Origin: Bacteroides sp.
Lineage (GTDB): Bacteria; Bacteroidota; Bacteroidia; Bacteroidales; Bacteroidaceae
NCBI GenBank assembly: GCA_017472925.1
Contig: JAFUNS010000034.1
Span: forward strand, 62,001-126,000
DNA: 64,000 nt
Direction: 5' to 3'
Shown here piece by piece: positions 6,251 through 51,256 of this stretch; within the stretch, counting starts at the first letter, position 1, and the number at the start of each line of letters is the position of its first letter. The translations under genes and the position numbers were made by a program. The notes beneath the pieces were generated by a model, which was given only the letters and a program-made list of their open reading frames with translations, ran no database searches and was not told the origin of the DNA.

Positions 6251-6383
6251 TCTTTCAGTTTTCGTTTAACGAACAAAAGTAACTAAAATTTTACCTATAA
6301 GGCAGTAAAACAGGTGAAAATTTGCGGAGAAAGCATTTTTTTTATATACTTGTCGTTCTTTTTGAATCTAAGTGGAATAAAAT

Positions 6384-8078: not shown

Positions 8079-8082
8079 GTGT

Positions 8083-21330: not shown

Positions 21331-22139
21331 GAAAATGGATAGTTATAATAGGTTGTATACTTGTGTCCTTCATGGACATAAAGGCGCAATGTACAGCCCA
21401 AAATGAAGCTATACAGGTAGGGGAGAAGCTGACATACGAATTGAAATTCAATTGGAAATTCATTTGGGTGAATGCTGGTGAGGCTAAAATGGACCTTACA
21501 GCTACCACTTATAATGGAAAGCCTTGCTACAAGACGGAGTTATTGTGTGTAAGTAACTCGAAAGTGGATTTTTTCTTCAAGATGCGCGATACACTTACTT
21601 GCATTACAACCGACCGCCTTCAACCTCAATATTTCCGTAAAGGAGCCGAAGAAGGAAGCCGCTATTCGGTGGATGAGGTATGGTTTGATTATGCCGATGG
21701 TAAGAGTGTGGTAAACCAGCAGCGCAAGGTGCGTGGGCGCAAAACCATTACTGCCAAGGATGTCACGGAAGATTGTGTGTTTGATATGCTCAGTATTCTG
21801 CTTCAGGCTCGTTCCTATGACCCTAAAGATTATAAGGTAGGCGATAAGATTCTTTTCCCCATGGCAACAGGAAGAAGAATAGAACAGCAGACACTTATCT
21901 ATCGGGGTAAAAAGAATTTCAAGGCCGAGAATGATGTAAAATACCGTTGCTTGGTGTTCTCGTTGGTAGAATACAACAAGAAAGGTAAGGAAGAGGAAGT
22001 GATAACCTTCTATGTAACCGATGACAAAAACCATTTGCCTGTCCGTTTGGACTTGTATTTGAACTTCGGTTCTGCCAAGGCATTCCTCAAGACGGTAGAA
22101 GGCAATCGCCACCCACTGACTTCCATCATCAAGGATTAA
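21327..22139 (+). CDS. DUF3108 secreted protein
   Basis: A 270-residue protein with a cleavable signal peptide (about residues 1-20, ending MDIKAQC) and the beta-rich DUF3108 pattern: GEKLTYELKFNWKFIWVNAG near the start and YFRKGAEEGSRYSVDEVWF in the middle. The fold is thought to be lipid-binding or outer-membrane associated; the job is unknown. The start overlaps the previous stop by four bases. Confidence 0.8.
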   Translation: MRKWIVIIGCILVSFMDIKAQCTAQNEAIQVGEKLTYELKFNWKFIWVNAGEAKMDLTATTYNGKPCYKTELLCVSNSKVDFFFKMRDTLTCITTDRLQPQYFRKGAEEGSRYSVDEVWFDYADGKSVVNQQRKVRGRKTITAKDVTEDCVFDMLSILLQARSYDPKDYKVGDKILFPMATGRRIEQQTLIYRGKKNFKAENDVKYRCLVFSLVEYNKKGKEEEVITFYVTDDKNHLPVRLDLYLNFGSAKAFLKTVEGNRHPLTSIIKD

Positions 22140-22190
22140 GGTCGATTGTTGGTTTCTTGTTATTTCTTCGTTTTGTTATCCTTCTTTATT

Positions 22191-22222
22191 GTGTCATCCT
22201 GAGCATAGCGAAGGATCTGGAG
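22191..22222. repeat. REP-like dispersed palindromic element (partial)
   Basis: GTGTCATCCTGAGCATAGCG followed by AAGGATCTGG resembles a short repeat dispersed between genes in many bacteria, which when translated gives SIAKDL-like peptides. AATCCT-type and AGGAT arms can pair across a short loop. The first 13 bases recur in the terminator at 48402. Confidence 0.5.
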
Positions 22223-22232
22223 ACATTTTCTA

Positions 22233-23060
22233 TTATTCGTCAAACAATCTGGATTGGCGTGATACGATATGAAGTTTTGCGCCAAGTTCCATTGCCTTCA
22301 GAATATGTTCTGCACCTTTACCCATTACTTTACATAAAGAGTATTTGGGACCTACAATTTCTTGGATACGTACTTCGCCTATTTTATGCTCCAAATAGTT
22401 TTCTGCCATCGAAGTCTGTACCATTACATCAAAGCGTTGTCCTTCTTTGATAGGGTCATCGTATCCTAAATTGATATACACTTTCTTGGCTTTCTTTCCA
22501 TTGTCGGCCACTAATTCTACGATGGAGCCATGCACCTTGAAGTTCTGTTCTATCATGTCCCTCATTTTATAGGGGATGTTTACCAATGCTCTTTCCAACG
22601 CATAATATTGACTGGCCTCTTTTCCCGAGGATGAACCGTTTTCTTCATAGTTTCGGGTATAGATGGTGGTGCCGTCGCTTGTACGTATCAGTTGCAATCG
22701 AATCGTGAACTTCTCCTTGTAGCTGTTTTCGCGGCTATGAAAACGTCTTGAAGAGATACCGTCATCGGTAGCTTCGCGATTCAGTAGTTTCCCTTGTAGC
22801 ATATATCCGGCCCTGTACTGCAAGGCATTCTCCATGGGTGAATATTGGGGGGTAGGTGGAAGGGTCAAAGCATCTATCAGTTGTACACGATTGGTTTTTG
22901 TTATACCGTCGATGACGGCAGCTCGTATATTGGTCAATACATTTTCGGGCACTTTGATGTCGCTACTGAATTCATTGACAAATACAATCTGTTTCTGCGC
23001 ATGCAGAGATACAGAAAAACAGAACAGAAGACAGGATAATAGAATATTTTGTATTTTCAT
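22233..23060 (-). CDS. Secreted CsgG/TolB-N-like protein, function unknown
   Basis: A 275-residue protein with a clear signal peptide (cleavage near LHAQ, residue 22). The mature N-terminal part (QIVFVNEFSSDIKVPENVLTNIRAAVIDGI ... as a loose region, about 23-150) resembles the ABD-like domains of CsgG, TolB or FlgT, which build a seven-residue beta pattern. The C-terminal part is unassigned. It is probably periplasmic or outer-membrane associated. No partner gene is adjacent; the next gene upstream is across the virE leader. Confidence 0.5.
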   Translation of the reverse strand: MKIQNILLSCLLFCFSVSLHAQKQIVFVNEFSSDIKVPENVLTNIRAAVIDGITKTNRVQLIDALTLPPTPQYSPMENALQYRAGYMLQGKLLNREATDDGISSRRFHSRENSYKEKFTIRLQLIRTSDGTTIYTRNYEENGSSSGKEASQYYALERALVNIPYKMRDMIEQNFKVHGSIVELVADNGKKAKKVYINLGYDDPIKEGQRFDVMVQTSMAENYLEHKIGEVRIQEIVGPKYSLCKVMGKGAEHILKAMELGAKLHIVSRQSRLFDE

Positions 23061-23242
23061 GGCCTTAATGAATAGATATTAGGCACGAAAGTAGAGCTTT
23101 TGTTTCTTATTTGCAAAATTTAGCTGTTAAAATATCATTCGTTATTTTATTGTCGGTTCTCTTTTTATTCTATCGATACACAATATAAAAATCGTGATAT
23201 CATCATACACACTTGCACTATGTATTGTAAAACGTTGTATAT

Positions 23243-23289
23243 AAGATGGATAATGTGTGTAAGATGGTGTGTAAGATGTGTGTAAGATG
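23243..23289 (+). repeat. Tandem GTGTGTAAGATG motifs upstream of virE
   Basis: GTGTGTAAGATG occurs at 23255-23266 and 23267-23278, followed by TGTGTAAGATG at 23279-23289; another AAGATG lies at 23243-23248. The same motif appears in inverse orientation just after virE (25758-25769). Confidence 0.8.
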
Positions 23290-23412
23290 AACTTTATCTT
23301 GCATACATTAAAAAGCGTGAATATGTATAGAAATATAACCATTCCTACTGTTTACAAGAGAAAAACATCGATTATCAGCTAATTTTCAATAAAATACGCC
23401 TATACATGCTTT

Positions 23413-23496
23413 GTACTGCGATGTAGTACCATCGTACTCCACTGTAGTACCATTGTACTGCGGTGTAGTTTCATCGTACTGCGGTGCAGTACAATC
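23413..23496. repeat. Four-unit 21-bp iteron-like array upstream of virE
   Basis: Units begin at 23413, 23434, 23455 and 23476. Each starts GTACT and contains a near-palindrome of the form GTACT-N6/7-AGTAC followed by CATC/CATT. The 593-bp gap 23061-23653 holds only this array, the motif cluster before it, and the virE promoter; I see no gene in it. Confidence 0.85.
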
Positions 23497-23594
23497 AATA
23501 TATCTTTCTTTTGAACGAATTTATTACCGTTTTATTCCTTTTATCAAGGGTGTTCAAAAGAAGTCCTACTTGCGTAAAAACAAAGCCTAAACAC

Positions 23595-23625
23595 TTGACA
23601 TCCCCTTTATTTTTTAGTATATTTG
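23595..23625 (+). promoter_or_regulatory. Promoter of the virE gene
   Basis: TTG at 23595-23597 and TATATTTG at 23618-23625 fit the Bacteroidetes -33/-7 pattern. They lie about 100 bp after the 21-bp array and 29 nt before the start codon. Confidence 0.5.
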
Positions 23626-23653
23626 TAGACGTAACCCAAAATCAATAAAATGT

Positions 23654-25741
23654 ATGAAGATAACCCTGATTAAGAAATCCGAAGAACGACCGGCCGAGAC
23701 TTGGAGTGCTTGCAGCTTGGGAAACTGGATAGAGAAACTGAAGCATGAGAACAAGGAAACGTATATTTCGCAACTGCGCTATGCGCTGCCTTCATTGGAA
23801 GGCTCGCGAGGGCGTTTCATCTACATAGACCGTATTCCCCGTGTATATCCGGCAGTAGAATACAAGCGTACTTCAAACGGGCGTCAGTTCAAGGCTTATC
23901 AAGGTATCGTACAGTTGGAAATAAACCGCTTGTCGGGATGGGCCGAAGTGGAATACATCAAGAAACAGGCATCCCTGCTTCCACAAACTTTGGTGGCCTT
24001 TGCAGGTAGTAGTGGAAAGAGTGTGAAGGTGTGGGTGCTATTCACGTTGACCGACGGTTCACTTCCCGCTACCGAAGAGCAGGCGGCCCTTTTCCATGCC
24101 CACGCCTACCGCCTGGCCGTACAATGCTATCAACCCATGTTTCCGTATTCCATCACGCTGAAGGAACCCACCTTGCAACAAAGTTGCCGCATGTCGGTGG
24201 ACGAAACACCCTATTACAATCCCGATTCCGTGCCTTTCTGTATGGAACAACCCTTGGTCATGCCCGGCGAAACCACTTTCCGCGAACGCAGGCAACAGGA
24301 AAAGAACCCATTGTTACGGGCAGAAGCCGATGATGATGCCTACATCAGCATGGGGGTACGTTTTCAGACGATACTGAAGCGGGTACTTTCTGACGTAGAA
24401 GATTGGAAACGGGGCGATGACCTCTCCGTATTGCTGCCCCGCTTGGGCGAAGAATGCTACAAGGCCGGTATCCCCGAAGAGGAGGCCGTGAGCCGTACAC
24501 TGAGGCATTACTATGAATGGGAAGACAAGGAATTGGTGCGTGCCACCTACCGTACCCTATATATGGAACTGAATGGATTCGGAAGCAAGCCGGCCGTTAC
24601 CCGTGAACAGGAAACGGCTATCCAGTTCGAGGATTTTTTGAAGCGCCGGTACGAACTGCGTTTCAATACGGTGACCGATGATTTGGAATACCGCGAACGG
24701 GACAGCATTCATTTCCACTTCCGTCCGGTAGACAAGCGGGTGCGGAACAGCATCGCCATCAACGCCTTGAAGGAAGGTATCCGCGTGTGGGACAGGGACG
24801 TGGACCGCTATCTGCATTCCGATTACGTGCCCGTGTTCAATCCGGTGGAAGAATACTTGTTCGAAGTGGGCAAATGGGACGGGCGCGACCGCATCCGTGA
24901 GCTGGCCGACTGTGTGCCTTGCAACCAACCCCATTGGCGTGAACTGTTCTATCGCTGGTTTCTGAGCATGGTGGCCCATTGGCAAGGGCTGGACAAACAG
25001 CACGGCAATGCCACCACTCCCATACTGATTGGTGCACAAGGGTATCGTAAGTCCACTTTCTGCCGTATCCTGCTTCCTCCCGAACTGCGTTTCGGCTATA
25101 CGGACAGCCTCAACTTCAGCAGTAAAGTGGAAGCCGAACGTTGCCTGAGCCGTTTCTTCCTGATAAACTTGGATGAGTTCGACCAGATAAGCATCCACCA
25201 GCAAGGGTTCTTGAAGCACTTGTTGCAAAAACCGTCGGCCAATTTGCGCAAGCCCTACGGCATAAGCATCCGTGAGATGCGTCGCTATGCCTCGTTCATC
25301 GCCACCAGCAATCACAAGGATTTGTTGACCGACCTTTCAGGCAACCGTCGCTTTATCTGTGTGGAAGTGAAAGCCCCTATCGAAACGAACATCACCATCG
25401 ACTACAAGCAACTATATGCCCAGGCCGTTCATGCCATCCGTCACCGCGAGCGCTATTGGCTGGACGATGCCGATGAGGCCGTTTTGAAGGAAAGCAACGA
25501 AGAGTTCCGTCAGACAAGTCCGTTGGAACAATTGTTCCACCATTGTTTCCAGGTGGCTGAAGAAGGTGAAGGGGAATGGTATACCACCATGCAGATTTTC
25601 AGTTATTTGCAGAAAAATACCCGCGAGAAATTCTCCAACGGTAAGGTAGTTATTTTAGGTCGTCTGTTGCAACAATTGGGAGTGCCTTCCAAGAGATCCA
25701 GAAGCGGAACAGTGTATTATTTAAGAAAAAGTGCAAGATGA
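23654..25741 (+). CDS. VirE/BT4734-type primase-helicase-like protein
   Basis: A 695-residue protein of the kind common in Bacteroides mobile regions. The N-terminal 200 residues match the BT4734/BF3469-like domain, related to archaeo-eukaryotic primases. The C-terminal half is a VirE-type P-loop ATPase: Walker A GAQGYRKST from about residue 460, Walker B FLINLDEFD around Asp507, and NRRFICVEV as a sensor/arginine-finger region. It probably acts in DNA replication of a phage- or plasmid-derived element. By eye it is richer in GC than the genes after it. The stop codon lies in the loop of a terminator hairpin, and repeated AAGATG motifs flank the gene on both sides. No integrase or replication partner is adjacent. 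Confidence 0.85.
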   Translation: MKITLIKKSEERPAETWSACSLGNWIEKLKHENKETYISQLRYALPSLEGSRGRFIYIDRIPRVYPAVEYKRTSNGRQFKAYQGIVQLEINRLSGWAEVEYIKKQASLLPQTLVAFAGSSGKSVKVWVLFTLTDGSLPATEEQAALFHAHAYRLAVQCYQPMFPYSITLKEPTLQQSCRMSVDETPYYNPDSVPFCMEQPLVMPGETTFRERRQQEKNPLLRAEADDDAYISMGVRFQTILKRVLSDVEDWKRGDDLSVLLPRLGEECYKAGIPEEEAVSRTLRHYYEWEDKELVRATYRTLYMELNGFGSKPAVTREQETAIQFEDFLKRRYELRFNTVTDDLEYRERDSIHFHFRPVDKRVRNSIAINALKEGIRVWDRDVDRYLHSDYVPVFNPVEEYLFEVGKWDGRDRIRELADCVPCNQPHWRELFYRWFLSMVAHWQGLDKQHGNATTPILIGAQGYRKSTFCRILLPPELRFGYTDSLNFSSKVEAERCLSRFFLINLDEFDQISIHQQGFLKHLLQKPSANLRKPYGISIREMRRYASFIATSNHKDLLTDLSGNRRFICVEVKAPIETNITIDYKQLYAQAVHAIRHRERYWLDDADEAVLKESNEEFRQTSPLEQLFHHCFQVAEEGEGEWYTTMQIFSYLQKNTREKFSNGKVVILGRLLQQLGVPSKRSRSGTVYYLRKSAR

Positions 25742-25754
25742 TCTTGCACTTTTT
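25726..25754 (+). terminator. Terminator hairpin overlapping the virE stop codon
   Basis: AAAAAGTGCAAGA (25726-25738) pairs perfectly with TCTTGCACTTTTT (25742-25754); the loop is exactly the TGA stop codon. Confidence 0.85.
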
Positions 25755-25757
25755 GCT

Positions 25758-25835
25758 CATCTTACACACCATCTTGCACATATTAAGTATCTTTTAATTA
25801 GATAGTTATCTTAAATTGTGCAAGTGTGCAAGATG
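25758..25835 (-). repeat. Inverted AAGATG motifs downstream of virE
   Basis: CATCTTACACAC (25758-25769) is the exact complement of the upstream motif; CATCTTGCACAT (25770-25781) is a one-base variant. TGTGCAAGATG follows in direct orientation at 25825-25835. The repeats may mark the limits of a virE unit. Confidence 0.75.
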
Positions 25836-26048
25836 AATTGTGAAATTCTCTATTGTGTAGATTACCACTTAACCTTTGGAGTATCAGCAGTAAAATTATA
25901 CGAGATTACAAATTCTAAGGGAGAAAAAGTTTTAATAAGACAAGATAAACCTGCTTTATACAAAGACGGTGGAATGCAACCAGCGCATTTTAATGCAGGC
26001 TTTAAAAAAGATATAAAACTAAAACAGCATCATTATTATGGAAATTAA
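25833..26048 (+). pseudogene. Orphan C-terminal fragment of a polymorphic toxin (CT1)
   Basis: About 72 codons ending KLKQHHYYGN. The stretch EKVLIRQDKPALYKDGGMQP with AHFNAG and KQHHYY resembles the C-terminal part of HNH-like nuclease toxins carried by RHS and contact-dependent systems; the His-rich end would be catalytic. The first 20 residues look unrelated, and no RHS core or secretion region precedes it, so it is a displaced tail rather than a full gene. Its last 11 bases overlap the next gene, the usual arrangement of a toxin and its immunity gene. Confidence 0.5.
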
Positions 26049-26532
26049 AACCAATGAAATAAAAGAAATTTATAAAGGGCATTATTTTATGCTATTGGAT
26101 TTCCCAACAATAGATATATTGAATTATATGTTAGATAAATCATATCAATATGTATGGGGGGTTAACTATGAAAAACATGGTTGTAAATGGGAAAAGGATT
26201 CTTGTAAATTATTTGAAAAAGAATGGGATGGACTTTATACAAGAAATGTAAATATGGAGTTCTTAATGAATACTTCCGATTTTATGGAAAGACTTCCGTA
26301 TATACAAGATAATCTTCATATCATGCAGATAAATAAGATGCCTCCATATTATTTAAATTTGAACCGCATAAAAGGGAAAACAAGATATGATTTATTAAAG
26401 ACTGAAACAGACTATTTATTTGAAGTGAAATTACCTTTTTCTTCTATATCCTCTGATTACACAGAAATTGTTAGTCCTAATTTGGATTTTTTGATTGGGA
26501 TAAAAGAAAAACTTTCTTTATCAGATAAATAG
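26038..26532 (+). CDS. Putative immunity protein (Imm1)
   Basis: A 164-residue, AT-rich gene with no signal peptide or membrane segment, so the product is cytoplasmic. I do not recognise its family. It overlaps the toxin tail CT1 by 11 bases and is followed by the cassette-end repeat. From that position it probably neutralises the CT1 nuclease-like toxin; the assignment rests on context only. Confidence 0.55.
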   Translation: MEIKTNEIKEIYKGHYFMLLDFPTIDILNYMLDKSYQYVWGVNYEKHGCKWEKDSCKLFEKEWDGLYTRNVNMEFLMNTSDFMERLPYIQDNLHIMQINKMPPYYLNLNRIKGKTRYDLLKTETDYLFEVKLPFSSISSDYTEIVSPNLDFLIGIKEKLSLSDK

Positions 26533-26536
26533 GTGT

Positions 26537-26624
26537 AAGGTAAATTCAACTTTAAAATGCAATTGAATTCATATTAGAAGAGTCTGTGTCAGAATACAAA
26601 TTTTGATGCAGACTCTCTTTTTCT
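26537..26624 (+). repeat. Cassette-end junction repeat J1 with hairpin
   Basis: GGTAAATTCAACTTT is followed by a hairpin with AGAGTCTG (26579-26586) pairing with CAGACTCT (26609-26616) and CTTTTTCT after it. The hairpin and its 22-nt loop are homologous to J3. RHS core sequence begins directly after the T tract. Confidence 0.75.
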
Positions 26625-27149
26625 ACCACCTACGGTGACAGCTATACCTACAACGTGCGCGGATGGACTACGGGAATCACCAACGGCAACTTTACCCAGA
26701 GCTTGACCTACAACAACGGTACTGCCGGATTCAATGGTAACATCACCGCCATGACCTGGACGGCCGGCGGTAGCAGCCACAGCTATGCGTTCACTTACGA
26801 CGGATTGAACCGTATGCTGAACGCCACCCATGACACCAATGCCTATACGGAAAAGGTTACGGGATATGGCAAGAACGGGAACATTACCGGATTGCAGCGT
26901 TATGGTAACGGACTGATTGACAATCTGGCCTATACCTACAACGGTAACCGGCTCACCAAGGTAGAGGATGCGACGGGCAATGCAACCGGTTTTACCGACG
27001 GTGCAAGCCAGGCAAATGAATACACCTACGACAATAATGGAAATTTAACATAGGATTAGAACAAGGGAATAACCAACATATCGTATAATTATTTAAATTT
27101 GCCGCAACAAATCCGTTATTCCAATAATATGAATATTTATTTGAATTAA
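26625..27149 (+). pseudogene. RHS/YD-repeat core fragment
   Basis: An open frame from about 26625 to 27050 encodes typical YD-repeat protein: YTYNVRGW, FTYDGLNRM, YGKNGNITGLQRY, YTYNGNRLTKVEDATG, YTYDNNGNLT. It has no start signal of its own and no N-terminal secretion part. At 27051 TAG and at 27057 TAG interrupt the frame, after which RHS-like residues continue (NKGITNISYN) until about 27132. It is a displaced piece of an RHS toxin carrier and is clearly more GC-rich than the cassettes on each side. Confidence 0.8.
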
Positions 27150-27161
27150 TAAGGAGGAAAT

Positions 27162-27632
27162 ATGATGTATATAAGAAGCATAGGGATATTATTAATATTC
27201 CTGATGTTAAAATGTGATTTATTTGCACAATCTATAATTACGGCAGATAAAGATATTACACAATATCTGAAACAAAAAGAAGTGTGCTATGATGAAAAGT
27301 ATGGTTTAGGAACTGCTTTTGCAGTGAATTTATTGACCTTTGAAGGGGTAACTACAAATGACAAATATGGACTTTATAAAATAGGGACATTTAACAGTCA
27401 TTCTTCTTCTCATTTAATGTGGTTAGAAAACGGCAAAAAACATTTTATTGATTGTATAAAAAATCTATCTGAAACATTGCAAAAAGTATTTGCCTTATGG
27501 AAGGAGTCAAAATGTAAATTACCAGATTCGGAAAAATTGATCTACATAGAACAAATTATAAGTATATTTGATAACAATCAACCAAATCTAGATGAACTAG
27601 AACCGAATGTGATAATGATTATAAAAAAGTAA
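27162..27632 (+). CDS. Secreted orphan immunity-like protein (Imm2)
   Basis: A 156-residue protein with a signal peptide (about residues 1-22, ending LFAQS), so it is exported. The remainder is unrecognised. An AAGGAGGA stretch 4-11 bases before the ATG is a strong Shine-Dalgarno site, rare in this lineage. It follows decayed RHS sequence and precedes a toxin tail that belongs to the next pair, so its own toxin appears to be gone. Call as immunity is by location. Confidence 0.4.
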   Translation: MMYIRSIGILLIFLMLKCDLFAQSIITADKDITQYLKQKEVCYDEKYGLGTAFAVNLLTFEGVTTNDKYGLYKIGTFNSHSSSHLMWLENGKKHFIDCIKNLSETLQKVFALWKESKCKLPDSEKLIYIEQIISIFDNNQPNLDELEPNVIMIIKK

Positions 27633-27826
27633 ATGGACGGATAAAATTTGACTTAAATGAATCCCGTGATGCTGTTTGGAATTATGTGCAATATTTAGGA
27701 GCAACGACCCGTAAATTGAATGTTCCAACTCCTACTTTAGAGAACCCGAATCGCAAACGAGATTGTTATACATGGAATGACAAGTCTAAAATCAATAGTT
27801 CAAATATAATAATCATGGATAAATGA
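27596..27826 (+). pseudogene. Orphan toxin C-terminal fragment (CT3)
   Basis: A frame open from 27596 encodes about 76 residues, with VNGRIKFDLNES followed by ENPNRKRDCYTWND, before TGA at 27824. The first part overlaps the end of the preceding gene in another frame. GRIKFDL plus a PNR(K)-type tail is reminiscent of RNase-like toxin ends, but the family is not certain. The stop overlaps the next start as ATGA, which indicates a coupled toxin-immunity pair. Confidence 0.45.
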
Positions 27827-28596
27827 GAAGTATATTATCAATAATTATGTTATTTACACTATTTGGGGATATATATCCCCAAATAGCAGTAATCTATAAT
27901 CAAAAAAGAAATACATTATTTTTTAAAGATGATTATTTGTATGATGATGTATACAAATATAAAATTGGAGAAGAAAATGGTAGTATAAAATTCTATGTAT
28001 ATGATGATAATGAATGCGAGAAGGAAGTCTTCTCTTCTTTCGGGGCTTCGCAATATGAGTTTTGTAGTAATGACACCTGTACTATCTTTAGTGTGTATAG
28101 TTTTTTCTCTCATAGCCTTGGATCGAATTCTGAAATTATATGTATTGATGAGGACGAATTACCGTGTAGGCCCAAAAAAAATGAAGCGGGCTTAGTTTTT
28201 CATTTTAAGATAGAAAAGGGAATATTTTCATGCATGTGTTTGTTTAATAAAAGCCCTCAATTGTTGTTTATAAAAAAACTTCCACCTCTTCATGACATAT
28301 TGGCTTCTCCTTTTTATTATAAAGATTTCCTAAATGAAATAGTTGTTCTAATGATGAATGAAGGATACGATAACGAATATATTCATCTGTTTATAAAGGA
28401 TTTTGATACAAAACTTCAAAAGAATAAATCTTTTATAGAAGCAATAAATAAGGCAAGTGATTATCCATCACATTATTATTTTATGAGAAACATATTTTCT
28501 ATACTTCTTCCTGTTTCGGGTAAAGATTTGTCGCTTGACCAATTTTTACTTTTAAGCAAAGATATGGAACATGTATTTGATGAAGTTAAATTTTGA
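27823..28596 (+). CDS. Putative immunity protein (Imm3)
   Basis: A 257-residue, very AT-rich gene coupled by ATGA to CT3. The N terminus MRSILSIIMLFTLFGDIYPQ looks like a signal peptide, suggesting action in the periplasm. The family is not recognised; there are several Cys residues (CEKEVF, CSNDTC). The cassette-end repeat J2 begins within ten bases of its stop. Confidence 0.5.
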   Translation: MRSILSIIMLFTLFGDIYPQIAVIYNQKRNTLFFKDDYLYDDVYKYKIGEENGSIKFYVYDDNECEKEVFSSFGASQYEFCSNDTCTIFSVYSFFSHSLGSNSEIICIDEDELPCRPKKNEAGLVFHFKIEKGIFSCMCLFNKSPQLLFIKKLPPLHDILASPFYYKDFLNEIVVLMMNEGYDNEYIHLFIKDFDTKLQKNKSFIEAINKASDYPSHYYFMRNIFSILLPVSGKDLSLDQFLLLSKDMEHVFDEVKF

Positions 28597-28604
28597 GTAA
28601 CAGG

Positions 28605-28660
28605 AAGTAGATTCAACTTTTAAATGCAATCATCCTTATAAAAGAAACTCCTTGGCAAAA
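28605..28660 (+). repeat. Cassette-end junction repeat J2
   Basis: GTAGATTCAACTTTTAAATG followed by CAATCATCCTTATAAAAGAA and ACTCCTTGGCAAAA. The last 14 bases equal the left arm of the J4 terminator, but the right arm is missing and toxin coding begins instead. Confidence 0.75.
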
Positions 28661-28793
28661 AACTAAAGATCCTGAAATAATGCCAACTGATATACCCATG
28701 GAAAAAGGAGAACTGTATTTAAAAGAATTGCATAAACGACTGGAATTAAATATACCTCAATGGCAAACTATTGGAATTCATTGGTTCAAATAA
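28611..28793 (+). pseudogene. Orphan toxin C-terminal fragment (CT4)
   Basis: An open frame runs through J2 and on to TAA at 28791. The part after J2 encodes about 45 residues, including EIMPTDIPMEKGELYLKEL and a hydrophobic WQTIGIHWFK end. It is a short tail of a larger toxin and cannot be classed. The next gene is a recognisable NTF2-fold immunity protein, which supports the toxin call. Confidence 0.45.
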
Positions 28794-28803
28794 GAAATAA
28801 GAT

Positions 28804-29214
28804 ATGAAAAGAATATACGTAATGTTGACTATGTCTTTAATGATAACGTCGTGTCATAAAACCGATTCATTGAAGCAGAAAGAGAAACAGAAATCTGTAG
28901 AAATCTGTTATGTATTGGATGACAATCTTTCATCGGATTTTTATTCAACTCTTTCTAGCATAGAACTTAAAGAAGGGATCGTATCTTCACCTGAAGTAGC
29001 TGTAGGTATAGCTCAAGCTGTATGGACAGGTATTTATGGCAAAGATATTGTAGAAAAAGAAAAACCTTTTTCTGTTAATTTGGAAAATGAAATATGGATT
29101 GTTGAAGGTGCTCCTCCTAAAGGCGAAGAAGGAACCATTATTTTCGGTGGAAATCTTTATATTGAAATAAAGAAAAGCACTGGAGAAGTTATCAAAGTAT
29201 TTAGGGTGAAGTAA
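28804..29214 (+). CDS. NTF2-fold immunity lipoprotein (Imm4)
   Basis: A 136-residue lipoprotein with lipobox ending ITSC at Cys17. The C-terminal 75 residues (VAVGIAQAVWTGIYGKDIV, PFSVNLENEIWIVEGAPPKG, GGNLYIEIKKSTGEVIKVF) match the NTF2 fold immunity family found beside polymorphic toxins. It would bind and block the cognate toxin at the periplasmic face. Only a short tail of that toxin (CT4) remains upstream. Confidence 0.75.
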   Translation: MKRIYVMLTMSLMITSCHKTDSLKQKEKQKSVEICYVLDDNLSSDFYSTLSSIELKEGIVSSPEVAVGIAQAVWTGIYGKDIVEKEKPFSVNLENEIWIVEGAPPKGEEGTIIFGGNLYIEIKKSTGEVIKVFRVK

Positions 29215-29238
29215 GACTTGAATCGTTAGTTCCCCTAA

Positions 29239-29321
29239 GAGGTAGATTCAACTTTTAATACAATTAATCCTTATAGTAGAGGCTGTGTTAAAATGTAAAT
29301 TTTGGCGCAGCCTCATTTTTC
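29239..29321 (+). repeat. Cassette-end junction repeat J3 with hairpin
   Basis: GGTAGATTCAACTTTTAATA is followed by a hairpin with GAGGCTG (29279-29285) pairing with CAGCCTC (29308-29314) and ATTTTTCT after it. Sequence and loop length match J1. RHS core sequence starts at 29325. Confidence 0.75.
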
Positions 29322-30592
29322 TGAACACCTACGACAATAATGGAAATTTAACAAAAGATTTGAATAAGGGAATATTCAATATATCGTATAATTCATTATC
29401 TTTGCCTCAAGTAGTTACGTTCAGTAATGGCAATACCATCACTTACCTGTATACTGCGGACGGAAGGAAACTTCGCACGGTGCATGTAACAAACGGTACA
29501 GCCACAACCACGGACTACTGCGGAAATGTGATCTATGAAAATGGCACCCAGAAACTGTTGCTGACAGAAGAAGGGTACATCAACTTGAATAGCCCCACCA
29601 CCTACTATTATTACCTGAAAGACCATCAGGGTAATAACCGGGTAGTAGTAAATTCAAGTGGCGCTGTGCAGGAAGTGAACCATTACTATCCGTTTGGCGG
29701 TACCTTTGCATCATCCAATGTTCAGCCATACAAGTACAACGGTAAGGAATTAGATACCAAGAACGGCTTGAACTGGTATGATTATGGGGCACGACATTAT
29801 GATGCGGTATTAGGATGTTGGTTTGCGACTGATCCACTAGCTGAGAAGTATTATGCAGAAAGTCCTTATACCTATTGCGGCAGCAATCCTGTGAATCGGA
29901 TAGATTTGTTCGGCATGGATTATTGGAGTACAAGTAATCCTGATGAAATCAATAGATTCTGGAGCTGGATGTCACAAAATGGTGGAAATGGTATTGACTC
30001 ATATTCATTCATGACTGATTCTTGGAACAGAATGACTGACAAAAAATTCCTTGAAGCGTATGAACAGGCTCTGACTTATAATGACCAAACAAATAAACTC
30101 TATTCATCGTATGTGACGTATGAAAATGGTGAATTTGTGGTGAATGGGGTTAGTGTTAATCGTGCTATTTTATTGGGAAATCAAGAGTATACCTTCACTT
30201 TTAATAATTTGATTCCAGCTTTTGGAACAAGCTCAGAGGTCATTTCTGAACTCTTTTATTCAAAAAGATATGGTACTTGGTTAGGTAAAGATGGGAAACT
30301 TCATGATATGACAATCAAAGGGAATCAATATATGGGAGGTAAAAATAAGTATGCTAAAAAATGGTCCAAACGATTTAAATATTTATCTAAAAATATTGCA
30401 GGATATAGTATATATAACACTTGGGATGATTATAGTAAAGGCCAAAATAGTTTTGAAGGTGCCGTTATTGATACTACAGTAGATTATTGCCATTACCATT
30501 TCCCTTTAATGTATGGTTTGATTTTTGGTTTGAAATGGGGAAAATATATGGTCCTAGTTCAAGAAGTAGCAAGTAATTTAAATGCCATTTAA
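29285..30592 (+). CDS. RHS core C-terminal part fused to toxin domain CT5 (5'-truncated)
   Basis: A 435-codon frame. RHS core starts at 29325 with TYDNNGNLT and continues YLYTADGRKL, YYYYLKDHQGNNRVV, the hallmark YDYGARHYDAVLGCWFATDP, and NPVNRIDLFGMD (ending about 29920). The last 220 residues are a variable toxin domain (CT5). Its end has a hydrophobic segment (FPLMYGLIFGLKWGKYMV), hinting at membrane action. The only start (GTG 29285) lies inside the J3 hairpin and no signal peptide or shell region is present, so the gene is probably a silent remnant unless joined to upstream RHS sequence. Confidence 0.75.
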   Translation: MLKCKFWRSLIFLNTYDNNGNLTKDLNKGIFNISYNSLSLPQVVTFSNGNTITYLYTADGRKLRTVHVTNGTATTTDYCGNVIYENGTQKLLLTEEGYINLNSPTTYYYYLKDHQGNNRVVVNSSGAVQEVNHYYPFGGTFASSNVQPYKYNGKELDTKNGLNWYDYGARHYDAVLGCWFATDPLAEKYYAESPYTYCGSNPVNRIDLFGMDYWSTSNPDEINRFWSWMSQNGGNGIDSYSFMTDSWNRMTDKKFLEAYEQALTYNDQTNKLYSSYVTYENGEFVVNGVSVNRAILLGNQEYTFTFNNLIPAFGTSSEVISELFYSKRYGTWLGKDGKLHDMTIKGNQYMGGKNKYAKKWSKRFKYLSKNIAGYSIYNTWDDYSKGQNSFEGAVIDTTVDYCHYHFPLMYGLIFGLKWGKYMVLVQEVASNLNAI

Positions 30593-30594
30593 TT

Positions 30595-30987
30595 ATGATT
30601 AATTTTTTTGATTGTATCTTTTTTACAATGTATCGATGGATAGCATTTTTGGAATCTAAATATTTGAGCGTTGGAGCTGATACTACTATTTTCTCTACAT
30701 TTTTTTATATCGCTTTCTTATTCTCATTGAATTTGTATGTAATATATTCTGGAATATCTATTTGGGCTGATTTAAGCTTTGCAGTAAATACATTAGAGGA
30801 GTTAATTGTATGTATGTTGTTAACTTATGGATTTTGTTATTTATATTATTTCCGAAATAAAAGATATATAAGAATAATTAGATTTAAGCAGTTAAATATT
30901 ATGCAAATAACAACTACAATACTATATGTTATTATTACAGTGATGACTTTTATAGGTATATTATATGTAGAGAGAAATAAATTATAA
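30595..30987 (+). CDS. Membrane immunity-like protein for CT5 (Imm5)
   Basis: A 130-residue protein with about three transmembrane helices (near 34-54, 68-86 and 103-124). It starts two bases after the CT5 stop and is followed by junction repeat J4. Integral membrane immunity proteins usually protect against pore-forming or membrane-targeted toxins, which agrees with the hydrophobic end of CT5. The family is not recognised. Confidence 0.5.
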   Translation: MINFFDCIFFTMYRWIAFLESKYLSVGADTTIFSTFFYIAFLFSLNLYVIYSGISIWADLSFAVNTLEELIVCMLLTYGFCYLYYFRNKRYIRIIRFKQLNIMQITTTILYVIITVMTFIGILYVERNKL

Positions 30988-31002
30988 TTCCGTTTGTAGC
31001 AA

Positions 31003-31078
31003 AGGTCGATTCAATTTTTAATTGCGACCGAACTCATTCAATAAAAACTCCTTGGCAAAATGTCAAGGAGTTCTTTTT
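31003..31078 (+). repeat. Cassette-end junction repeat J4 with terminator
   Basis: GGTCGATTCAATTTTTAATTG is the divergent repeat core (split here: GGTCGATTCAA, then TTTTTAATTG). AACTCCTTG (31046-31054) pairs with CAAGGAGTT (31064-31072), followed by CTTTTT: an intrinsic terminator. Confidence 0.75.
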
Positions 31079-31099
31079 GAAGGGTGAATCATATAAGGG

Positions 31100-31147
31100 A
31101 ATAATTTAACACAAAATTTAAACAAAGGGATTAGCAACATATCGTAA
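31100..31147 (+). pseudogene. RHS core remnant
   Basis: In one frame this reads NLTQNLNKGISNIS and stops. The same residues follow NGNLT at 27041 and 29344, so it is a third copy of the same RHS core position, cut off at about 31147. In the 30988-31419 gap I see this remnant, J4, a possible minus-strand gene scrap and a large inverted repeat. Confidence 0.6.
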
Positions 31148-31149
31148 GT

Positions 31150-31245
31150 GTTGGAAGAGAGAGCGAGCAAATCGTCTATGGCCGAATCAATCATTTGGGA
31201 AGTACAAACCTCTCCTTGTAAGGTCATGGTATAGAGGATGTTCAT
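31150..31245 (-). pseudogene. Possible N-terminal scrap of a disrupted gene
   Basis: Minus-strand codons from 31245 read MNILYTMTLQGEVCTSQMID and SAIDDLLALSSNT, then run into antisense RHS sequence. It may be the first 33 residues of a gene cut by insertion of the RHS material. I do not recognise it, and it could be chance. Confidence 0.25.
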
Positions 31246-31274
31246 AGTCTTGCTCTCATTTCTGTAAATATAAT

Positions 31275-31333
31275 GACTTTCCTTCGAATTATCATAAAAT
31301 GATTATCATAAGATGATAATTTGAAGGAAAGTC
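31275..31333. repeat. Large inverted repeat, 21-bp arms
   Basis: The arm 31275-31295 (GACTTTCCTTC then GAATTATCAT) matches the complement of 31313-31333 at 20 of 21 positions, with a 17-bp AT-rich spacer. There is no T tract, so it is not an ordinary terminator. It lies between the RHS island and the GH51 gene. Confidence 0.75.
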
Positions 31334-31419
31334 TTGTTATGTCTTTAAGCGCCAGTTGGTTATTGAACTCCTTCTGTTGTCATTACAATGCGCTTGAAGA
31401 TGACAGGGAAATTTACTTT

Positions 31420-33393
31420 TTATTCTTTTGTAAACTTATAGATGGCAAATGTCTTGGCTCCAACTTCTGTATTGAATACAGTGCCTTCGATGCTGACTTT
31501 GCTTTCTTTTGGAAGAACTACGTTCGGGTTGTCAACGGTATTGTCGGCATCCAAATTGTCTGAATGGAAAGTAATGCACTTACCGTTAGTCAACTTGTTT
31601 TTCTTCTTCAAGCCCTTGAAGTCGAGGGTTACAGGTTGTGCCTTGTCTGAAGTGTTGATAACCTTTACAATGTATTCCTTAGTGTCATTATCCCATACGG
31701 CGCTGGCGAACAAACCATCTTGTCCTTCCTGACCACCTACAGGCTTCTTGTCCATAGTCAAAGGAACTACGTTGGTACCCTTGTTGTGAGAATACAACTG
31801 CTGTACATAATAGCTACAAGTGCGAACAGACTTCAAGTTATCAAACCAAATCATATCGGGACGCCATTGCCAACCTTCTACGTGAGCGAAGAGTGGAGCG
31901 TATGTAGCCATGTGAACGATATCGGCATTGCGTTCAATGTTGGTCATGAAAGCAGCTTCGAGCAAAGCGGCATTGAAGTGGTTCCACTTCTTACCTTTAC
32001 CGTGACAAGCATATTCACCGGCAAATACCTTCGGGCCTTTGCGGTCGTACTTGTCATAGCGCATACCTTCGGCCAAGAACCACTTTTCCGGACGATAGAA
32101 GTGTTCGTCTACCAAGTCTACTTTCAACTTAGCCATTTCCGGCCACAAGTAGTCGAATTGTTCACCTTCAGAGTTAGGACCGGAGCTACCGATGATGTTC
32201 ATATCAGGATAAGCCTTGCGGATAGCTTCAACAAATGGCTTGAGGTGTTCAGGATATTCAGGTCCCCATTGTTCGTTACCGATACCGATGAACTTCAAGT
32301 TGAATGGTTCTGGGTGTCCCATTTCGGCGCGGAGCTTACCCCACTTGGTGTTAACGTCGCCATTGGCAAATTCAATCAAGTCCAATGCATCTTGGATATA
32401 GCTGCCCAAATCGCAAACCTTTACGTGAGCTTCTTCGCTTTCATTTTGGAATTGGCAAGCCAAACCACAACTCAATACTGGCAAAGGTTCTGAACCGATT
32501 TCTTCCGACAACAAGAAGAATTCATAGAAACCAAGACCGTATGTCTGGAAATAGTCGGGGAAGAAACGATGTGGGAAAGTATAGTGCCAACGGTTTTCGT
32601 TCAATGGACGGTTTTCAACCGGACCTACTGTGTTTTTCCAATTATAGCGGGTTTCAAGGTCGGTACCTTCTACAATACATCCACCCGGGAAACGGAATAC
32701 ACCTGGCTTGATATCGCGAAGCGCTTCTACCAAGTCCTTACGCAAACCATTCTTGCGGCCTTTCCAAGTATCAACAGGGAAGAGTGATACGTGTTCCAAA
32801 TCAACGGTACCCGGAGAAGCAAGGAAAATACGGAGATGAGCCTTGGCCTCAGTAACGGGAGCTTTCAAAATCACTTCGTACTGCTTCCAATCTTTAGAAT
32901 TGATTTCCAAGTTCTTGGCAACAAGCACTTGAGTTTCGCCCATCGAGCTGTTATCGATGATTTCAATTCTGATTTTCTGGTTTTCACCACGTGCCCATAC
33001 AGAAAAACGATAATCGGCATCTTTCTTGACTGATACTCCGAAGAAACCTTCGTTTTCAATACCTGTGCGCTTGTGGGCATGTCCCGGATCACCCAAACGT
33101 ACGTAATGAGGGTTACGTTCGAACGGACCGTCGTGCATCAACTTGACATTACCGAAGGTTGTCCATCCCATGAAACTTTGTGGAAATTCAAACGAACGGT
33201 TCTTGATCATTTCTGCATAGAGACCTCCATCAGCTCCGTAGTTGATGTCTTCGAAGAAGAGTCCATACATGGTAGGCTGTATTTCAGCTCCTATTTTATT
33301 GGTTTGCACAACCATTTGATGTGCATTCTGCGCGTTGAGCGCCATACCTGCCGACAAGACCAATGCCGACATGATTGCTTTGTGTAACTTCAT
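31420..33393 (-). CDS. GH51 alpha-L-arabinofuranosidase
   Basis: A 657-residue secreted enzyme with a signal peptide (cleavage near ALNAQ, residue 22). Residues about 60-210 form a CBM4/9-like beta-sandwich; the GH51 TIM barrel follows, with acid/base Glu374 in GIGNEQWG and nucleophile Glu460 in VFAGEYACHG; a beta-sandwich ends the protein. It removes terminal alpha-L-arabinofuranose from arabinan or arabinoxylan. It is divergent from the hybrid regulator and completes the arabinan locus. A hairpin lies about 60-95 bases before its start. Confidence 0.92.
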   Translation of the reverse strand: MKLHKAIMSALVLSAGMALNAQNAHQMVVQTNKIGAEIQPTMYGLFFEDINYGADGGLYAEMIKNRSFEFPQSFMGWTTFGNVKLMHDGPFERNPHYVRLGDPGHAHKRTGIENEGFFGVSVKKDADYRFSVWARGENQKIRIEIIDNSSMGETQVLVAKNLEINSKDWKQYEVILKAPVTEAKAHLRIFLASPGTVDLEHVSLFPVDTWKGRKNGLRKDLVEALRDIKPGVFRFPGGCIVEGTDLETRYNWKNTVGPVENRPLNENRWHYTFPHRFFPDYFQTYGLGFYEFFLLSEEIGSEPLPVLSCGLACQFQNESEEAHVKVCDLGSYIQDALDLIEFANGDVNTKWGKLRAEMGHPEPFNLKFIGIGNEQWGPEYPEHLKPFVEAIRKAYPDMNIIGSSGPNSEGEQFDYLWPEMAKLKVDLVDEHFYRPEKWFLAEGMRYDKYDRKGPKVFAGEYACHGKGKKWNHFNAALLEAAFMTNIERNADIVHMATYAPLFAHVEGWQWRPDMIWFDNLKSVRTCSYYVQQLYSHNKGTNVVPLTMDKKPVGGQEGQDGLFASAVWDNDTKEYIVKVINTSDKAQPVTLDFKGLKKKNKLTNGKCITFHSDNLDADNTVDNPNVVLPKESKVSIEGTVFNTEVGAKTFAIYKFTKE

Positions 33394-33450
33394 GGTGTTT
33401 TTCTTTTATAGTTATATTTTAAATCTAAATTTTATCTTATTTAGGAACAA

Positions 33451-33487
33451 AAGCCGTAAGTCAATGCCTTCATTGCACTTACGGCTT
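33451..33487. promoter_or_regulatory. Leader hairpin upstream of the GH51 gene
   Basis: AAGCCGTAAGT (33451-33461) pairs with ACTTACGGCTT (33477-33487); CAATG/CATTG extend the stem past a one-base bulge to a CCTT loop. On the GH51 strand it is followed by TTTTGTT, so it might attenuate GH51 or end a transcript. The rest of the 33394-33699 gap shows only promoter-like sequence. Confidence 0.5.
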
Positions 33488-33658
33488 CTTCTACCTAATT
33501 TAACCAACCTATTTAACAATACAATTCTAACTGCTTGTTGGTTACAAATATCGTATTAAATAAAGAACCGTAAGTGGACAATTGTACACGAAGGGTGGAC
33601 AATGTGCTGGTTACTCAAAAAAAGAAACTTATACTTTCGTAAATATCACAATTTAAAG

Positions 33659-33666
33659 TAACTTTG
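33659..33666 (+). promoter_or_regulatory. -7 box of the hybrid regulator gene
   Basis: TAACTTTG fits TAnnTTTG, 34 nt before the ATG at 33700. Confidence 0.45.
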
Positions 33667-33699
33667 TCCTATAATAATTGGTCAAATCTACGAAAAACC

Positions 33700-36600
33700 A
33701 TGCAGATAAGCAAATTTATTATTGTTTTATTCCTTTTTTATATAGCTCCGTTGGATTTAGTCGCGGAGAATGTAACCCGAAAGTGGATAGAGAGATATAA
33801 TGTAACCTATCTTACCATAGACGAGGGGTTGCCTTATAATTCGGTAGAGGATATTGTAAAAGATAGCTATGGCTTTTTATGGATAGCCAGTAGTAGTGAA
33901 GGTATAACCCGATACGATGGCTATGAATACATATCGTTCAATATGGGTACAGAACGTGCCAAATTACGAAGTAACTTTATACACAAATTATGTGAGGACC
34001 GTTTTGGACGTTTATGGATAGCCAGTGAGGAAGGTATAGACATTATTGACTTGAAACATCTGGTCAATACGCAGATTCCGGATGCGACCAATCAATTTGC
34101 TTCGTTTTGTAATTTGCCGGTGAGTCATCTTTGGCTTAGTAGTGCAGGTAATCTTTGGATTTGTTCGGGAAACAAGCTTTTTAAAGTAACGTTCCAGACG
34201 GATGGTGGCATAGAGCATATTATACAAGTGTGCCAATTACCCGAAGGAAAAAGTATTCGAACCATTTGTGAAGTGGATGATTATTTGTGGCTGAATTACC
34301 AGGATGGTGTCTATCGGATCAAAGAATCTGTTTTGAAAGGGCAAGAACCTACTATTGTTTCTCAAACACTTCATTTACCGGGTGTAGAGATTAATGTGAT
34401 TAAAAAGAAGGAGGATGAAATTTGGATTGGTAGTGCTCAGGGACTTTTCCGCTATAATGTAAATACCGATCGTATCAGATATTACTCACACGATGGTCAA
34501 AATCCAAATACGTTGTCGCAGAATATGATAACGGATGTTGTAGTTACTGGCACTCATTCTCTTTTAGTCGCTACTTTCAAGGGACTGAATGTATACAATC
34601 CTTTGACCGATTCATTTGAACGTATCAATCTGGATAGTGGGGGAAATACACTGAACAGTGACTTTATTAATTGTTTGCTTTCTGATGGAGATATTATTTG
34701 GGCTGGTACGGCTATTGGTGGGGTAAACAAAATAGGGAAACGCACACTGAATCTTCGTAACTATTCCCATTCGAATGATCAGGCTGGAAGTATTTCACAC
34801 AATCCTATAAATGCTATTTACGAGGACAAGGCGGGGGGACTTTGGGTAGGTACGGTAGAAGGCGGACTTAATTATAAGTGCCCCGGTAGTGAAACCTTTT
34901 TGCACTATACCACGGATGCGCCGGCAAGATTGACGCATAATTCTGTCAGTTGTTTTACAGAGGACAACCGTAATCGTTTATGGATAGGTACATGGGGAGG
35001 AGGTTTTGGTTGGATAAATATGTCGGGGAATGACAAAACGTTCCATCATGTCAGTGATAATCGGTTTCCTGATGCTTCTTTAGGCTTTGTCGGTGCTATC
35101 TGTTATGATTCGCTAAACGATGTAATTTGGATTGGCACAAGTACTAACATCTATACTTATAACTTGAGAACCAATACCTTTTCAGAACCTTTCAGTGAAA
35201 GACTATTGGGAGGTATAGATGGGTGTACGGGGTATTACATCGAAAATGGTACGCATCTGTGGATAGGATTGACCAAAGGTCTTTGTCGTATTGATCTTCG
35301 TACATTGAATAAGGAGACACCAGTATATCAGCTTTGGAGTTATAAACTGGATAATCCCGAATCGAAATTGGTGGAGAGAATTACGTATATCATTCAGGGA
35401 AATGACGGTACTTTCTGGATAGGGAGTAACGGATATGGTTTTTATCGGGCTTCAAAGAAAAGCAACGGGGAATATACTTTCAAAGGATATACTACTGAAG
35501 ATGGCTTAATCAGCAATAGTGTACGTGGTTTGCAAGAAGACAGTGAAGGTCGTATTTGGATTACTACAACCAATGGTTTGTCTTGTTACGATCCGGAGAT
35601 GGATATCTTTCATAATTATACACGAAAGGACGGACTTCTTTCCAATCAGTATTATTGGAATGCCATAGGAAAATCAAGTAATGGGAACATTTATTTAGGT
35701 AGTATTGATGGGTTGACAGAAATATACCCGTCTATTGATATGGAAGAACAAGTAACTGTACCATTGGCGTTTACCCATTTACGTATAGCCGAGCAAGAAC
35801 AATTATTGGGTGAGGAACGTGTACAATTGCATGAAGAGGACAAATACCTTTCCATTGATTTTGCTGCCTTAGATTATAATGCTTCCGATTTTGCTGCCTA
35901 TTCCTATCGTTTGAAAGGGTTTGATGACAAATGGGTAAAAGTATTTGCCAACCAAAGAACAGCTACTTTTACCAATCTGAATGCCGGGAATTATATTTTT
36001 GAATTGCGCTATGCACCCGATGGACGTCAATGGCAGGAACAGACGGCTACATTAAATATATATGTAGCTCCTTATTACTATAAGACACCGTGGTTCATGG
36101 TATTGGCGCTTTTATTTCTTGTATTTTTGGTATATTGGATTGTGTCATGGCGCATACGGTCTATTCAGGAACAACGTCGTTTGTTACATATCAAGGTAGA
36201 AGAACGTACCCATGAACTGCAAGAGCAGAAAGAAGTGCTCGCTGCTCAAGCTGGAGAACTTTATAGCCAGAACGAGTTGTTGAAACAACAGAATGTGAAG
36301 ATCTTGAAACAACAGGAGCAGCTTATAGAAATGTCTAACAAGGTACAGGAACTGACGATAGACAAACTTGCTTTCTTTACCAATATCACTCATGAATTCC
36401 GAACACCTATTACCTTGATTATAGGTCCTATTGAACGTGCACTAAAACTTAGTTATAATCCACAAGTGATAGAACAATTGCATTTTGTGGAGCGGAATTC
36501 CAAGTATTTGCTTTCGTTGGTCAACCAATTGATGGATTTCCGTAAGATTGAATCGGGGAAAATGGAAATATCTCCGAATCCGGGTAACTTTAAGAAATTC

Positions 36601-49987: not shown

Positions 49988-50005
49988 TTTGATATTAATA
50001 TAAGG

Positions 50006-50041
50006 TAAGTGGGTATGTTAAATGCATATCCACTTATTTAT
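50006..50041. terminator. Terminator between cysS and the propeller lipoprotein gene
   Basis: TAAGTGGGTATG (50006-50017) pairs with CATATCCACTTA (50025-50036), one G-U pair, followed by TTTATTTTC. It is a diverged relative of the GTGGATGTG terminator family and lies between convergent genes. Confidence 0.65.
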
Positions 50042-50085
50042 TTTCTACCGAGCAACATCATTTAGGAATAATCGACAGAATAGGA

Positions 50086-51198: not shown

Positions 51199-51238
51199 TG
51201 GTTTCTAATTTTAATGAACAACTTTCTATACTTTACAA

Positions 51239-51256
51239 CATTAGTGGACACTAATG
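51239..51256. promoter_or_regulatory. Palindrome in the divergent promoter region
   Basis: CATTAGTG-GA-CACTAATG: perfect 8-bp arms with a 2-bp spacer, about 45 bp before the lipoprotein start. Candidate operator. Confidence 0.45.

Follow-up and report, generated by a model that had tools for sequence, protein, structure and literature searches.

How does a Bacteroides genome come to hold a row of RHS toxin ends and small immunity-type genes, and what kind of junction joins the parts of such a row? The window, i.e., the whole 64-kb stretch of DNA that was analysed and to which all coordinates refer, contains such an array at 25869-31146. It is composed of three RHS core places, three amputated toxin tails, one open-frame toxin and five small genes that are intact; every part lies on the + strand, in AT-rich DNA with 28-39% G+C per 1-kb segment. 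In our view the array is probably a decaying row of displaced Rhs toxin/immunity cassettes, built by homologous recombination.

A tblastn search of the whole window with an 803-aa carrier core returned two RHS segments, and a third piece was added by blastn. The first, matched by tblastn at 26610-27125 (core residues 464-640), is a core remnant delimited at 26626..27149, corresponding to carrier core residues about 475-640; the second, matched at 29327-29914 and delimited at 29325..29914, comprises core residues 607-803, including Rhs_assc_core, and runs up to a toxin start (tblastn); the last is a remnant of just 54 bp at 31093..31146, 78% alike to 27034-27085 (blastn). The NCBIfam model Rhs_assc_core (TIGR03696) matches the ORF 29285-30592 above its cut-off (E 3.6e-17), with the core preceding the toxin. 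A Pfam RHS_repeat profile search of the whole genome gave no match, which we read as low sensitivity of this 38-position model; the ORF 26655-27053, searched singly, passes the same cut-off (23.2 vs 22 bits). These searches bear out the core at three places that a previous sequence-only reading of this DNA had described, as well as its AT-rich toxin fragments, its five small genes (ORFs at 26038, 27162, 27823, 28804 and 30595) and its statement that the window has no RHS N-terminal region: indeed, tblastn found no N-terminal, export or carrier region in the 64 kb.

That reading had also proposed a search of the host genome for a full RHS gene. Searching the assembled genome (79 contigs, 79.7% complete) with a 460-aa N-terminal query from the carrier of a sister species (G006) gave no carrier N-terminus; as a positive control, this query matches 5 of 61 congeneric genomes. 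The 1070-aa upstream partner from another relative (G016), a query used with no positive control, likewise matched nothing in the same genome. The claim that an intact carrier is missing holds for the assembled 79.7%; a carrier may have been lost in assembly, since in the sister species the two RHS contigs open with one common repeated sequence. Carriers followed downstream by displaced cassettes are present in three relatives (G006, G016 and G070). The set of loci used for comparison leans to close relatives because the best 80 of 429 relatives were kept (72 loci).

The first toxin tail (25869..26048) is the C-terminal end of a probable HNH-type, Tox-HNH-EHHH-like toxin (sub-threshold in Pfam: 19.7 bits for a cut-off of 25); the remainder of the toxin is absent and a VapE-type gene stands upstream. 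It shares 66-72% identity with toxin ends at two loci of other genomes (L086, from Bacteroides heparinolyticus, and L100), where homologues of imm1 (26038..26532, 164 aa; 42-44%) are adjacent to the same toxin end, and at L086 both stand behind a full carrier core. The third tail (28650..28793) is an open-frame toxin C-terminal end, 50% alike over 40 aa to a tail (L080) that likewise adjoins a homologue of imm4 (28804..29214, 136 aa; 44% to L080 8153-8557). The assignment of the gene at 28804 to the NTF2-fold immunity family is confirmed by an above-cut-off match to Imm-NTF2-2 (E 2.4e-15). In other Bacteroidales, too, the partners of each pair (tail 1 with imm1, tail 3 with imm4) lie side by side after RHS core; imm1, by its toxin pairing, and imm4, by family and pairing, are presumed immunity genes. 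With two pairs found behind full carriers or displaced cores elsewhere, and with carriers of relatives trailing such arrays, the view of the locus as a displaced toxin-immunity array stands.

The second tail (27596..27825) is an open frame read as the end of a presumed toxin, with a stop that overlaps the start of imm3, and it had no homologue among the fetched loci. The fourth toxin (29915..30592), the only one with an open frame behind its core, has a hydrophobic end by eye and is 57% alike to the toxin of a carrier in a relative (L054) over the first 149 of its 225 residues; imm5 (30595..30987, 130 aa, membrane-protein-like by eye) is named for its position directly behind it and has a sub-threshold match to Bfi1-immunity (E 0.016). 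Profile placement of the small genes succeeded for imm4 and fell short for imm5. Two further ORFs, imm2 (27162..27632, 156 aa) and imm3 (27823..28596, 257 aa), both with a signal-peptide-like start by eye, were searched for in 399 of the family's genomes: imm2 had no homologue outside its own genome, and the only matches to imm3, eight weak and partial ones with E near 1e-4 per genome, lay within open frames of 478-713 aa and were rejected as homologues. With no convincing homologue in these genomes, the term immunity rests on position for both, and the array offers them as two presumed immunity genes that have no recognised relative in this set of family genomes.

The sequence-only reading had seen in this layout a reservoir from which cassettes might be exchanged onto a carrier. 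This fits one cassette, 29285-30592, the only one that still joins core to toxin; in the other three toxins the 5' part and the core, the would-be homology arm, are gone. The same decay raises the alternative of a functionless graveyard, in which broken RHS remains are being lost and no immunity is live; an assembly without a carrier, truncated toxins in three cases out of four and a last core of a few dozen bases are what it would leave, yet five genes of 130-257 aa stay open in DNA of such low G+C and the visible joints all lie outside them, so that we hold it to be rather unlikely. A presumed retention of immunity would fit the open frames of all five small genes, although this is a biased count, as immunity genes deleted outright would be invisible.

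How the cassettes are delimited is indicated by their ends. Of 13 genes that occupy an immunity position in this genome and the sister species, 12 lead into GTAGATTCAACTTTTAAATGCAAT, or a sequence close to it, and in most cases an intrinsic terminator comes next. Within the array, the repeat is followed by terminator hairpin T3 at 26540..26616 and by hairpin T1 at 29242..29314; at 28607..28662 it is followed by the left half of the T2 hairpin and then directly by tail 3; at 31005..31072 a diverged repeat precedes the T2 hairpin; imm2 has no such end behind it. In the T1/T3 hairpin, one stem pair is altered on both sides among seven copies. Outside the genus, GTAGATTCAACTTTTAAATGCAAT is the end of IS30-family elements, complete or broken: an element of 1129 bp (L190) has the motif at 21/22 at one end, and its two ends agree with each other at 18/22, and the IS30 model NF033563 matches a second locus (L192) above the cut-off and L190 below it. 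The idea that the motif is an RHS-specific attachment site was dropped, as its matches outside the genus are the ends of these elements. The sole exact match in viral contigs lies inside an unrelated coding gene. Next to the motif in one relative (G074), inspection by eye suggested a remnant of IS30 type (L183), for which Pfam gave no match. The family motif scan did not return G006, G009, G070 or G074 among its matching genomes, although a separate search found the motif in them at 3 mismatches.

A transposon-type end invites the explanation that it is a working 3' boundary, which a transposase from elsewhere would cut or target, so that incoming cassettes would be joined exactly at its outer edge and accumulate in a row. 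An alignment of 17 copies, each preceded by an unrelated gene, shows conservation beginning abruptly at that edge, and some ORFs terminate inside the repeat; besides the IS30 elements that bear the same end, the unit occurs behind non-RHS genes and in a Mediterranea RHS array. A second outer heptamer lies 9-11 nt upstream in 3 of 24 copies, a result reached by 4 of 20000 shuffles, for a heptamer picked after inspection and copies that are partly non-independent. However, all copies at RHS genes have the same orientation and no inverted partner in the scanned stretches, so that ordinary transposition of a cassette with these ends alone is impossible; no IS30 gene was seen beside any copy in this genome, and cassettes in other genomes share common junctions without the repeat (partly by eye). 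We judge a transposase-made boundary improbable; were it true of this clade of Bacteroides-like bacteria, toxin repertoires would grow by transposase-assisted capture too, in addition to homologous or illegitimate recombination.

Construction by homologous recombination, the reading we prefer, is addressed by the recurrence of the repeat, the terminator and the core start as one block between unrelated flanks. When the junctions at 26539 and 29242 on the window's contig (C21) are compared with junctions on another contig of the genome (C8), the repeat plus terminator are 93% and 76% alike and the following 480-560 bp 84-85%, while the 200 bp on either side of the blocks show 46-49%, against 47% for random pairs. 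Over 119 copies from 30 genomes, same-genome junction stretches were alike in 51 of 251 pairs and control stretches in 4 of 251, so the shared block is not general. This comparison left out copies that begin no later than core residue 60 or have less than 700 bp upstream, L082 (identical to L055), exact duplicates, stretches with runs of N and genomes with a single displaced copy; L078 and L079, on the same contigs as L053 and L054, were omitted from both core and junction comparisons. A breakpoint hot spot at core residues about 580-640 was dropped, since the peak was in part made by the method: the query started at residue 607, with a variable stretch just before. The recurrence of the block supports recombination through repeated blocks, and an active role of the IS30-type end could still accompany it.

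Such similarity between C21 and C8 might also arise if a metagenome assembly had merged RHS repeats from several loci or strains, and the number of contigs, together with the one repeat in which the two RHS contigs of the sister species begin, agrees with this. A difference of about 15% between repeats should nevertheless lie far above what one assembly would merge, and the same array type with the same cassette ends is seen in separately assembled genomes, which makes an artefact very unlikely.

As a model for the displaced row, a new cassette, consisting of core end, toxin, immunity gene and cassette end, would be integrated into a carrier through homologous recombination within the core, and each entry would shift the older cassettes downstream. 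The cassettes here lie between direct repeats of a single block (IS30-type inverted repeat, intrinsic terminator and core start); two blocks could recombine to release a cassette as a circle, and the core of the circle could recombine with a carrier to reinsert it. Later deletions would have taken most toxin 5' parts, the cores and the carrier side of the locus and spared the five small genes, whose products may still protect the cell; we infer this passage through a circle, the succession of events and the protection. Against this explanation, two joints (imm2 with tail 2, and the half terminator with tail 3) require illegitimate deletions rather than block recombination, the assembly has no carrier, and imm2 and imm3 lack a homologue paired to a toxin. 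To our knowledge, the gain of new tips by polymorphic toxin loci has been modelled but not shown; the transposon-like cassette end and the repeated terminator/core block provide defined junctions, at which RecA- or transposase-dependent movement is testable.

Rows of displaced cassettes are already known, and the shared cassette end may bear on how they are built. For Rhs C-terminal displacement arrays of Enterobacteriaceae, Jackson et al. (2009; PMC2935791) propose circular intermediates formed by homologous recombination; as described there, those arrays share with ours partial cores of varying length, unlike tips, low G+C and a position downstream of, or apart from, the carrier, whereas ours is in Bacteroidota, belongs to a DUF6443-kind carrier (a domain for which the literature search gave no paper), has most toxins amputated and ends its cassettes in a common IS30-type repeat plus terminator. 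In Vibrio cholerae, T6SS immunity gene arrays arise by sequential displacement, and Kirchberger et al. (2017; PMC5361080) found neither specific sites of integration nor signs of an integrase; there too, on that account, an old effector is replaced, its 3' remnant and immunity gene are kept, and tails and immunity genes stand in a row, while our array has a specific repeated cassette end and involves no T6SS gene as far as seen. The rAID clusters of gut Bacteroidales, according to Azhieh et al. (2025; PMC12247911), possess a recombinase and correspond to effectors of T6SS; they resemble the array as a row of orphan immunity genes in a Bacteroidales genome and differ from it in that here RHS core and toxin tails sit between the genes; inspection by eye of the ORFs of at least 50 aa at 22000-36000 revealed no recombinase. 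With IS30-family insertion sequences (NF033563), the array shares a cassette end equal to the terminal inverted repeat of elements in other genera, but it has one end only, in constant orientation and with no transposase, and a terminator hairpin follows immediately on the inner side. Set beside integron cassette arrays, which have an integrase gene and attC sites, the cassette end of this array matches IS30 ends instead. No description of Rhs cassettes that finish in an IS30 end was seen in the literature searched, which left most subscription journals outside its scope. With three partial cores in a row, unlike tails and the same tips on carriers elsewhere, the array is a case of Rhs C-terminal displacement as in Jackson et al., here decayed, and its new element is the cassette boundary, a shared IS30-type end plus terminator in an otherwise known kind of array.

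The array (window 25869-31146) lies on contig C21, of which the window covers 62001-126000, and occupies an AT-rich stretch between a VapE-type gene (23654-25741) on its left and an arabinofuranosidase on the minus strand (31420-33393) on its right, with all its parts on the plus strand. The first half runs from toxin tail 1 through imm1, a cassette end, RHS core, imm2 and tail 2 to imm3; the second comprises a cassette end whose hairpin is only half present, tail 3, imm4 and another cassette end, and the 3′ end is formed by RHS core with toxin 4, imm5, a cassette end and a final 54-bp core remnant. The arabinofuranosidase is kept in two congeneric genomes, G033 (88% identity) and the sister species G006 (83%); blastn found no RHS in the roughly 15 kb fetched on that side in either, thus the array at this site is not common to those two. 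The VapE-type gene (BT4734-like N domain, VapE, DUF3874) is flanked by inverted repeats (23177-25859), pairing 23177-23224 with 25812-25859 (73%) and 23240-23278 with 25758-25796 (85%); gene and repeats together may form a small mobile element responsible for the loss of the array's carrier side. Another AT-rich stretch lies at 50000-52500 (32-37% G+C in 1-kb windows).

The sequence-only reading had counted five immunity-like genes; this role is well supported for two of them, while for the other three it rests mainly on position. Tail 1 and imm1 are matched by neighbouring homologues in two of the loci compared: in L086 (Bacteroides heparinolyticus), directly behind a carrier core (5120-7588), and in L100, there behind a displaced core. 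For tail 3 and imm4, such neighbours occur in L080. Toxin 4 shares 57% identity with the toxin of L054, a carrier from G006, across the first 149 of 225 residues, with weaker partial matches in L096, L142 and L143. The NTF2-fold assignment of the gene at 28804 was upheld, imm4 being the only small gene above a curated family cut-off (Imm-NTF2-2); imm5 gave a sub-threshold Bfi1 immunity match, and imm2 and imm3 have no convincing relative in the 399 family genomes searched.

In relatives, the full design starts with a YD-repeat partner, continues downstream with the carrier (about 1000 aa), its toxin and its immunity gene, and ends in displaced cassettes; DUF6443 is present in both G006 carriers tested. 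As a query, the N-terminal part (460 aa) of the G006 carrier matches 5 of 61 congeneric genomes (G006, G016, G023, G033 and G070) and has no match in the source genome (2.8 Mb, 79 contigs, 79.7% complete). Since both G006 RHS contigs start inside one repeated sequence, carriers readily drop out of assemblies of this kind. A second array of the source genome, on contig C8, holds two core-toxin ORFs, each followed by a small gene, and adjoins a DDE transposase close to the contig end; contig C33 retains one RHS core remnant (L009 9478), beside which lies an AbiE-type toxin/antitoxin-like ORF pair (7674-9124, by eye).

GTAGATTCAACTTTTAAATGCAAT or a close variant stands behind six of the seven immunity-position small genes of the two arrays, imm2 being the exception, starting 7-27 nt past the stop codon or overlapping it, and behind all six such genes of G006 (-14 to 59 nt); an extra G006 copy (L053 12352) lacks a clear immunity gene upstream. 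At L054 6321-6416, an RHS core piece is joined straight to the repeat and no cassette separates the two. An alignment of 17 copies, of which three lie away from RHS genes, shows conservation that sets in abruptly at GT and declines beyond about 24 nt. Most copies are followed by a hairpin, either of the T1/T3 family, where one stem pair is T-A in three copies, G-C in three and G-T in one, or the unrelated T2 (nine copies). Terminator scoring was positive for three of the four window cassette ends, the fourth having half a hairpin (5 sites against 2.5 expected by shuffling). The 28-base pattern has 10 matches in the source genome at 2 mismatches; the motif occurs in 5/61 genomes of the genus at 3 mismatches and in 6/399 of the family at 2, and all controls, reversed for the source genome, gave 0. 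A second outer heptamer, a word picked after inspection of the copies, lies 9-11 nt upstream in 3/24 copies, matched by 4 of 20000 mononucleotide shuffles.

Outside the genus, the motif has eight matches in five genomes: six adjoin IS30-type transposase pieces (recognised by eye), one shows the same end as two transposase-flanked ones with no visible gene, and one breaks off at a contig end. The L190 element is 1129 bp long; at one end it agrees with the motif at 21/22 positions, and its opposite end agrees with the first at 18/22. Of the two ORFs compared with the IS30 model, that of L192 scored above the cut-off (E 1.9e-34) and that of L190, a fragment, below it (1.2e-13). The outer GT and the bases just inside (CGAA) likewise agree, so that the cassette end resembles one end of the IS30 family; no inverted partner was found in the stretches scanned. 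Judged from its sequence, it looks like a single IS30-family end in one orientation, lacking the transposase that elements of this family carry. IS30 prefers its own ends as target.

The repeat is also found away from RHS genes: with T2 behind a DUF805-like gene (C43, L076 712), partially, with T2, behind a TonB-receptor-like gene (C33, L009 14467), and with different downstream sequences behind a ychF-like gene (L075 8159) and a penicillin-binding-protein-like gene of G070 (L182 7690), all gene names being by eye. Within the set of 72 named loci, and allowing up to 5 mismatches, the motif is confined to L078, L079, L081, L082 and L088 (0 for the reversed control). L088 (1420), from Mediterranea massiliensis SIG138, has a variant with 4/25 mismatches and T2 before a displaced core; it may reflect inter-genus transfer or mis-binning, the latter because SIG genomes appear to have a common source. 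In G074 (L183 4538-4819), the terminal 93 aa of a peptidase gene (171-2447) are present a second time on the downstream side of a short insert, a pattern that would fit entry of DNA into the 3′ end of the gene with its duplication.

Window junctions 26539 and 29242 align with the C8 junctions across repeat, terminator and core, at 84/90 and 68/89 columns for repeat plus terminator and 405/484 and 472/558 for the core stretch that follows; the 200 bp on either side of the block show 46-49%, as random pairs do (47%, highest value 52%). In a comparison of 119 displaced copies from 30 genomes, 51/251 same-genome pairs, 10 from the source genome and 10 from G006, have similar junction stretches against 4/251 for control stretches, as do 64/6770 between-genome pairs against 11/6770; in other genomes, the common junction part resembles, by eye, a terminator without the repeat. 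Recombination via direct repeats or circles would predict repeated blocks of this sort. It is unlikely that the IS30-type end takes an active part in cassette movement; it may instead be a passenger copied along with the block.

The array type itself is already known, and this is a further example; the literature searched gave no description of a repeated IS30-type cassette end at Rhs arrays. Circular intermediates were proposed for enterobacterial rhs by Jackson et al. (PMC2935791), and the abstract of PMC3299598 reports a minicircle stage of IS30 transposition with abutted ends. Kirchberger et al. (PMC5361080) found neither specific sites nor evidence of an integrase; they report illegitimate losses with immunity kept, and the two window joints outside the block pattern, imm2 to tail 2 and half terminator to tail 3, look like losses of the same kind.
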